In this document: piece after piece, positions 21,626 to 23,148 of the stretch
Position numbering within the stretch: position 1 is the stretch's first letter
Layout of the letters: every line of letters starts with the position of its first letter
Assembly: GCA_022704525.1 (NCBI GenBank)
Contig: JAKJGF010000016.1
Coordinates: forward strand, 1-37,335
Reading direction: 5' to 3'
Length of the DNA stretch: 37,335 bases
DNA from: Bacillota bacterium
GTDB taxonomy: Bacteria; Vulcanimicrobiota; SpSt-956; JAKJGF01
Program-made: the position numbers and the translations under genes
Notes under the pieces: model-generated
The model's input: only the letters and a program-made list of their open reading frames with translations
What the model was told of the DNA's origin: nothing
Database searches by the model: none

Positions 21626-22705
21626 ATGTGGCGAGATATAAATTATTTAATTAATCTCATATATTCTTATGGTAATTTTATTACTCGTAAAGAACTGGTG
21701 AAATCAAAACCAAATCTTTTCTGGATAGAACCTACCAATTATTGTAACCTTAAATGCCCCATGTGCCCGGGAACTTATGCCGATACAGGTATTAAGAAAG
21801 GGTTTATGTCTTTTGATCTTTTTAAAGATATTGTAGATGAAATATCTCTTTTTGTGCTGGAGAGTTATCTTATGCTTGGAGGAGAATCACTTCTTCATAA
21901 AGATATAGTAAGTATGGTACAATACATGAAAATGAAGAAATTGAATGTTTTGATGGATACCAATGCAGTACTACTTACAGAAGAAGTGGGGAGAGAACTT
22001 CTAAAAAGTGGTCTTGATTTTATTTCCATATCCTTTGATGGATATGAACCTTCTGTTTATGAAAAGATCAGAGTAAATGCAAAATATGATGTTACCCTGG
22101 ACAATATACGTAATTTTTTAAATTTAAAGAAAATTCATAATTATAAGACCTTTGTCAGGATAAGAAGTATGGAAGATTCAGGAGAAAATCCCAATTTTAA
22201 CAAACAGAAAAGAGATTCCTTTCGTTCACTTTTCCTTAATCTTCCTGTAGATGATTTTATTATACTTCCTTTCGGAAACTGGAATCAGAATTTGCCGGAG
22301 AATGAAACTTTTCATATACCCAATCTCTCTAAAATTGACACAAATCACCCTTCTTATCATCCCTGCTCATATTTATGGACTTCTCTCTGTATCAGATGGG
22401 ATGGCACAGTAGTGGCTTGCTGTCTTGATTTATTAAATCAACTCGTCCTGGGTGACAGAAAAGAAAAAGATATTTTCAAAATCTGGAATGACAGTCCCAT
22501 TCTCGATCTTCGGCATAAACATATTACAGGTGAGTTACCATTTCCCTGTGTCACCTGTGAACATGTAATTTCAAAGAAAATCTTTGGCTTACCTGCCGGT
22601 GGGTTCTGTGGCGTCACATCACTGGCCAGAAAATTTCTGGGTATAAAAATTTATAAAGACATGCTGGGACAGTCAGGTTATTTAAGAAAGTTATTTTTTA
22701 AGTAG
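21626..22705 (+). CDS. Radical SAM/SPASM-domain protein
   Basis: The 359-aa enzyme has an N-terminal radical SAM core with the cluster motif YCNLKCPMCPG (CxxxCxxC at about residues 38-45), a GGESLLHKDI motif for SAM binding, and ISFDGYEPSVYEKIR. The C-terminal part carries extra cysteines (HPCSYLWTSLCIRWDGTVVA, CCLD, FPCVTC), the SPASM pattern for auxiliary 4Fe-4S clusters. Such proteins modify peptides or small molecules; this architecture with 'IRWDGTVVACC' also occurs near glycan loci. No peptide precursor is evident nearby. The stop codon TAG at 22703-22705 lies within the outermost bases of the inverted-repeat element, so the last residues may derive from its insertion. Confidence 0.85.
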   Translation: MWRDINYLINLIYSYGNFITRKELVKSKPNLFWIEPTNYCNLKCPMCPGTYADTGIKKGFMSFDLFKDIVDEISLFVLESYLMLGGESLLHKDIVSMVQYMKMKKLNVLMDTNAVLLTEEVGRELLKSGLDFISISFDGYEPSVYEKIRVNAKYDVTLDNIRNFLNLKKIHNYKTFVRIRSMEDSGENPNFNKQKRDSFRSLFLNLPVDDFIILPFGNWNQNLPENETFHIPNLSKIDTNHPSYHPCSYLWTSLCIRWDGTVVACCLDLLNQLVLGDRKEKDIFKIWNDSPILDLRHKHITGELPFPCVTCEHVISKKIFGLPAGGFCGVTSLARKFLGIKIYKDMLGQSGYLRKLFFK

Positions 22706-23148
22706 AGGCGAGGTTATACCAATTATTAATCAATTGTACTAATAAAACAGCTTTGAGGCTACTCCAAAAAAATATGAATACTTATACTTCTTTACCTGAT
22801 GCAATATCCTTCAAATTTCAACATGTAATTAACTTAAAACTTCCTTTAAATACACCATCTTTTTTTCCGTAGCCTCAAGACTGTTTACTACGTACCGCAA
22901 CAGGCAAGTTAGTATCCATCTCACAATTCTGTCCCTGTCCGGGCTCTTACGCAAAATCTATGATCCTGTTACAATGAAATCTGTTATTACAGAATATACA
23001 GTTTTGTATTTATTCAAGTTATAACTTTCTCCTTTGACGGCATATCTTTTGCTCCAGAGCCCGGACAGGGACAGGTGTATATGTTTTTGGATACTTTTTT
23101 ACCTGTTGCGGTACTACGTTTGATGGTAGATTGGTATTACCTCGCTAC
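22702..23148. mobile_element. 447-bp branched inverted-repeat element
   Basis: Outer arms GCGAGGTTATACCAAT (22708-22723) and its inverse at 23130-23145 match at 15 of 16 bases. They enclose two sub-structures. Branch A is TTGAGGCTAC (22753-22762) with GTAGCCTCAA (22869-22878), extended by A/T pairing. Branch B is a stacked stem: GTACCGCAACAGG (22892-22904) with 23102-23114, AGTATCCA (22911-22918) with 23088-23095, CTGTCCCTGTCCGGGCTCT (22929-22947) with 23056-23074 (19 of 19), and GCAAAATCTATG (22951-22962) with 23041-23052 (10 of 12). A TA flanks each end (22703-22704, 23146-23147). No ORF is visible. It is either a MITE-like element or a structured RNA. Confidence 0.7.

Follow-up and report, generated by a model that had tools for sequence, protein, structure and literature searches.

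The 447-nt palindrome at positions 22702-23148 of the window (the whole stretch of 37,335 nucleotides that was analysed) is a composite of a host hairpin, a repeat of about 200 bases (family B) in the loop of this hairpin, and a 221-base repeat (family A) within B, and it is nearly certain that these repeats are two different MITEs that were inserted serially between two convergent genes and moved in trans. The first-pass annotation had described one branched palindromic element; every arm was found at the position it gave, but the single element gives way to three palindromes, nested in each other. What had been called an unusual three-way design is an accident of serial insertion, the branches being separate repeat families that occur apart elsewhere in the genome.

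The closing 16-bp stem (22708-22723 and 23130-23145; GCGAGGTTATACCAAT and ATTGGTATTACCTCGC, one mismatch) is formed partly by the end of B and partly by the host hairpin. The side hairpin (approximately 22750-22880) is the interior of B, and the long stacked stem (22893-23113) is A, which ends in perfect 12-bp arms (TACCGCAACAGG and CCTGTTGCGGTA) and contains the perfect 19-bp inner arm CTGTCCCTGTCCGGGCTCT (22929-22947 and 23056-23074). All of these annotated components were thus located in the sequence, and no ORF of at least 80 amino acids was present inside 22702-23148, as the annotation had noted.

The genome from which the window derives (5.04 Mb, 407 contigs) was searched using the 447 bp as query. 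The search returned dozens of matches, nearly all of them limited to query positions 185-415 or thereabouts, i.e., the inner stem. The boundaries of A on the plus strand (22893-23113) were set by aligning the ends of the retrieved copies. At least 47 copies had both flanks readable in this genome, mostly with 95-98% identity to the window copy, and the A copies differed from their own consensus by about 4% per base. With partial copies included, many of which lie at the end of a contig, the distinct flanks numbered 62 on the left and 63 on the right and were unrelated to each other; many copies with variable flanks was the outcome that the annotation had proposed as support for a mobile element. 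The genome contains 57 + 56 exact occurrences of the 11-mer ACCGCAACAGG and none of the reversed control. None of the 42 testable A sites lay inside an open frame of at least 100 amino acids, and no other interiors bounded by exact A ends were found in the genome. Being short (221 bp) and non-coding, with terminal inverted repeats and dispersed copies in unrelated surroundings, A has the properties of a MITE.

Several variants of A were observed. In three copies (L068, L073, and L089) the interior (positions 37-182; 97-99% identity) has the opposite orientation with respect to the ends, as though the loop had been flipped by recombination between the 19-bp arms. A 74-bp mini A (L066, positions 399-472; G000:C203) consisted of both ends only, the interior being deleted. 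A 1.9-kb stretch between A-type ends (98% and 85% identical; L078, positions 227-2139; G000:C293) contained, besides a methyltransferase fragment, a 443-aa ORF without a Pfam or NCBIfam match; since its flanks differ (CTTAC and CCAGG), this stretch may represent a relic instead of an element that carries cargo. In addition, an intergenic repeat in which AGCTATCAGCAATCAGC-like units surround a TTTTTTC spacer was seen at L021, L048, L056, L061, and L065 and on the minus strand of the window, and three A copies were located within such units.

Copies of B were found by searching the same genome with the outer part of the palindrome joined across A. In the window B lies on the plus strand as a left part that includes the side hairpin (22717-22892, starting with TACCAATT) and a right part delimited by the alignment of B copies (23119-23136, ending with GATTGGTA); copies on contigs C201, C261, C158, C296, and others were approximately 82-93% identical. 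The ends of B read TACCAAT and ATTGGTA. At least 14 other copies had readable ends and measured 181-218 bp (mostly 194-218 bp), the window copy measuring 194 bp. B was flanked by TAA, TTA, or TCA. Of the 14 other copies, 12 had the same TNA triplet at either end; in the window it is TTA (22714-22716 and 23137-23139). Its inverted ends, multiple copies, and target duplication identify B as a MITE as well. A single-copy, non-conserved region, named in the annotation as the finding that would contradict it, does not apply here because both parts are multicopy.

The order of the two insertions is given by the B copies that are free of A (such as L012, L015, L016, and L017), which read TTTACTACGTTTGATGG or close to it and contain ACTACGT once, whereas in the window ACTACGT stands on each side of A (ACTACGT-A-ACTACGT). 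The A-free copies thus represent a paralogous empty site, and A was inserted into an existing B, duplicating CTACG. The two copies of this 5-bp duplication lie at 22888-22892 and 23114-23118, their register following from the flanks of the A copies in the genome. A further A copy interrupted a B-type repeat at L117. When B and one TTA are removed from the window, the remaining host DNA reads GTAGAGGCGAGG-TTA-CCTCGCTAC, in which AAGTAGAGGCGAGG-TTA-CCTCGCTACTGTC (GCGAGG-TTA-CCTCGC) forms a hairpin of -10.4 kcal/mol. Its left arm GCGAGG (22708-22713) immediately follows the stop codon (22703-22705) of the upstream radical SAM/SPASM gene, and its right arm CCTCGC lies at 23140-23145. The neighboring UDP-glucose dehydrogenase was at best 51-53% identical to Omnitrophota sequences, a match that does not assign the organism to a phylum. 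Most probably, B (194 bp) first entered the TTA loop of this small hairpin, duplicating TTA, and A (221 bp) later entered B at CTACG, duplicating these 5 bp and splitting B into 176 and 18 bp.

The annotation had also considered a structured RNA, i.e., a single branched RNA or cis-regulatory element with its fold under selection. The 447 nt have a predicted folding energy of -159.1 kcal/mol compared to -83.5 ± 4.6 kcal/mol for 100 dinucleotide shuffles; with z = -16.4 the fold is far beyond chance, and this stability and the intergenic position just past a stop codon are what such an RNA would lead one to expect. Inverted-repeat elements fold stably without selection on an RNA, however, and the inverted ends, not a role as an RNA, appear to account for the stability. 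The two branches occurred apart and in different genomic contexts, no Rfam family matched, and among 2806 predicted-pair cells in 46 A copies only 20 were compensatory compared to 54 broken. Many of the listed two-sided changes came from just two A copies, presumably copies with an inverted interior. Searches of 148 other genomes of the phylum found neither A nor B, which also argues against a conserved RNA, and the strong form of this explanation is refuted by the empty site in B; we give it hardly any credence. The plasmids and phages searched were likewise free of A and B, and the exact A end pattern was absent from GTDB and IMG/VR contigs, among which the records of this genome itself may be missing. 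As far as searched, the two families are limited to this genome.

The flanks of A were 5-bp direct repeats of the CTNAG type, of which CTACG is the pair in the window. The flanking 5-mers were identical in 20 of 47 pairs compared to 7.8 expected when partners were shuffled, agreement was seen in 34 pairs for the middle base (19.6 expected) and in 41 pairs for the fifth (36.1 expected, p = 0.002), and at positions 2 and 4 left-right agreement was no higher than after shuffling. A 3-bp TNA duplication, as in NuwaII, was disfavoured for A, as the left and right flanks shared non-consensus fifth bases (3 joint, p = 0.001). Tandem A copies (L080, L116, and L057) had one CTTAG in common at each junction, a pattern that would arise when a copy is inserted into the CTTAG next to an existing copy. 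Together with the empty site in B, the 5-mer identity establishes a target-site duplication for A, although it is often imperfect. Short, palindromic, intergenic, and present in many copies, A could also be viewed as a REP/BIME-like extragenic palindrome that a RAYT or an IS200-type enzyme has spread. Exact ends with flanking direct repeats are not known from REP elements or IS200/IS605 elements; A, by contrast, has both over its 221 bp, and the target duplication is apparent from the empty site, making an origin of this kind very improbable.

Left and right flanks differed in 27 of the 47 pairs, a number too high to be accounted for by copy age: the mismatched copies were not older than the matched ones (3.1% and 5.5% divergence from the consensus, respectively). 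The differences were directional, with G next to the element (inward strand) and A on the far side (14 versus 2; binomial p = 0.004, for a pattern picked after inspection of the data); the flanks of the window copy were free of this A-to-G difference. The flank G was not an inherited lineage mark, since copies sharing it were not closer relatives (p = 0.47, 0.25, and 0.47). Nor were hairpins the target of A, since the flanks of 43 sites, when joined, did not exceed CTWAG control sites or flanks that had been mispaired in their degree of palindromy (p = 0.21 and 0.41).

We can think of two origins for this asymmetry, a donor flank that is tolerated via G-T pairing or the overlap of a recombinase. 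According to the former, A would bring a few bases of its donor flank to each new site, the donor overhang pairing with the target gap if G-T wobbles suffice, so that one flank would retain the donor G and the other the target A. We consider this unlikely, but if true, it would mean that a small transposable element uses a joining step that has gone unrecognised. According to the latter, a tyrosine recombinase would move A; the 12-bp arms and the 5-bp CTNAG overlap that they enclose would act as core site, and the mismatched flanks would be unrepaired heteroduplexes. The coupling sequences of Tn916 are the model for mismatches of this origin. The arms-plus-5-bp geometry at tandem junctions (GGTA-CTTAG-TACCGC in L080 and L116) and flanks that are related yet often non-identical are consistent with such an enzyme. 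A 257-aa tyrosine recombinase gene on contig C217 (L150, positions 946-1719) ended approximately 160 bp from an A copy, and the assembly encoded only one other PF00589 protein, which was XerC/D-like. However, the target DNA had no arm-like sequence beyond the 5 bp, a double-stranded circle predicts equal mismatch directions instead of 14 versus 2, and the gene on C217 did not lie between A ends, its proximity to one among dozens of copies being weak evidence. A tyrosine recombinase therefore seems quite unlikely.

Since neither A nor B carries a gene, each must have relied on a transposase acting in trans and recognising its inverted ends. Both are non-autonomous MITEs, and movement in trans, already proposed in the annotation, is right for each of the two parts, as these are gene-free repeats with inverted ends and direct-repeat flanks. 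We infer cut-and-paste transposition by DDE-type transposases for both families, and from the TNA duplication, together with general knowledge of IS5 and the published targets of IS5-type elements (PMC4482050), the source of B was probably IS5-type. In the whole assembly DDE_Tnp_1 was present at four places, DDE_Tnp_1_2 in two decayed fragments (C92 and C238), and Phage_integrase in two genes. In this draft assembly, which is 91% complete, none of the DDE_Tnp_1, DDE_Tnp_1_2, or tyrosine recombinase genes was seen to be bracketed by A or B ends. A parent of A was sought among the DDE_Tnp_1, IS1182, and IS701 genes and the tyrosine recombinases, and no matching ends were seen. Near the C92 fragment one correctly oriented GATTGGTA was present, perhaps by chance. 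Many of the 407 contigs end within A copies, and given these breaks and the incompleteness of the assembly a parent element that is itself repeated may be missing from it.

Both families resemble prokaryotic MITEs such as the 235-bp Chunjie of Geobacter uraniireducens (reviewed in PMC10969869) in being shorter than 500 bp, AT-rich, intergenic, and without a gene, in their inverted ends, direct-repeat flanks, and stable stem-loop, and in occurring in tens of copies with truncated relics alongside. The ends and interiors of A and B matched no record found. The insertion of small intergenic repeats into each other has a counterpart in the BOX/RUP/SPRITE clusters of Streptococcus pneumoniae (cited in PMC10969869), a different organism likened here by description, and MITEs of such a size and copy number are also known; the finding is ordinary in kind and new in sequence. 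The striking fold is a by-product of serial insertion and cautions against reading nested palindromes as designed RNAs, and the two families have expanded in an uncultured bacterium whose assembly is fragmented by their copies. IS5-type elements and their PIF/Harbinger relatives use TNA or C|TNA|G targets (PMC4482050) and share the duplicated TNA with B; A and B carry no transposase, and the likeness lies in the form of the target. NuwaII (PMC4482050) shares the CTNAG target form with A, whose duplications are unusual in often being imperfect and are better supported as 5 bp than as 3 bp.
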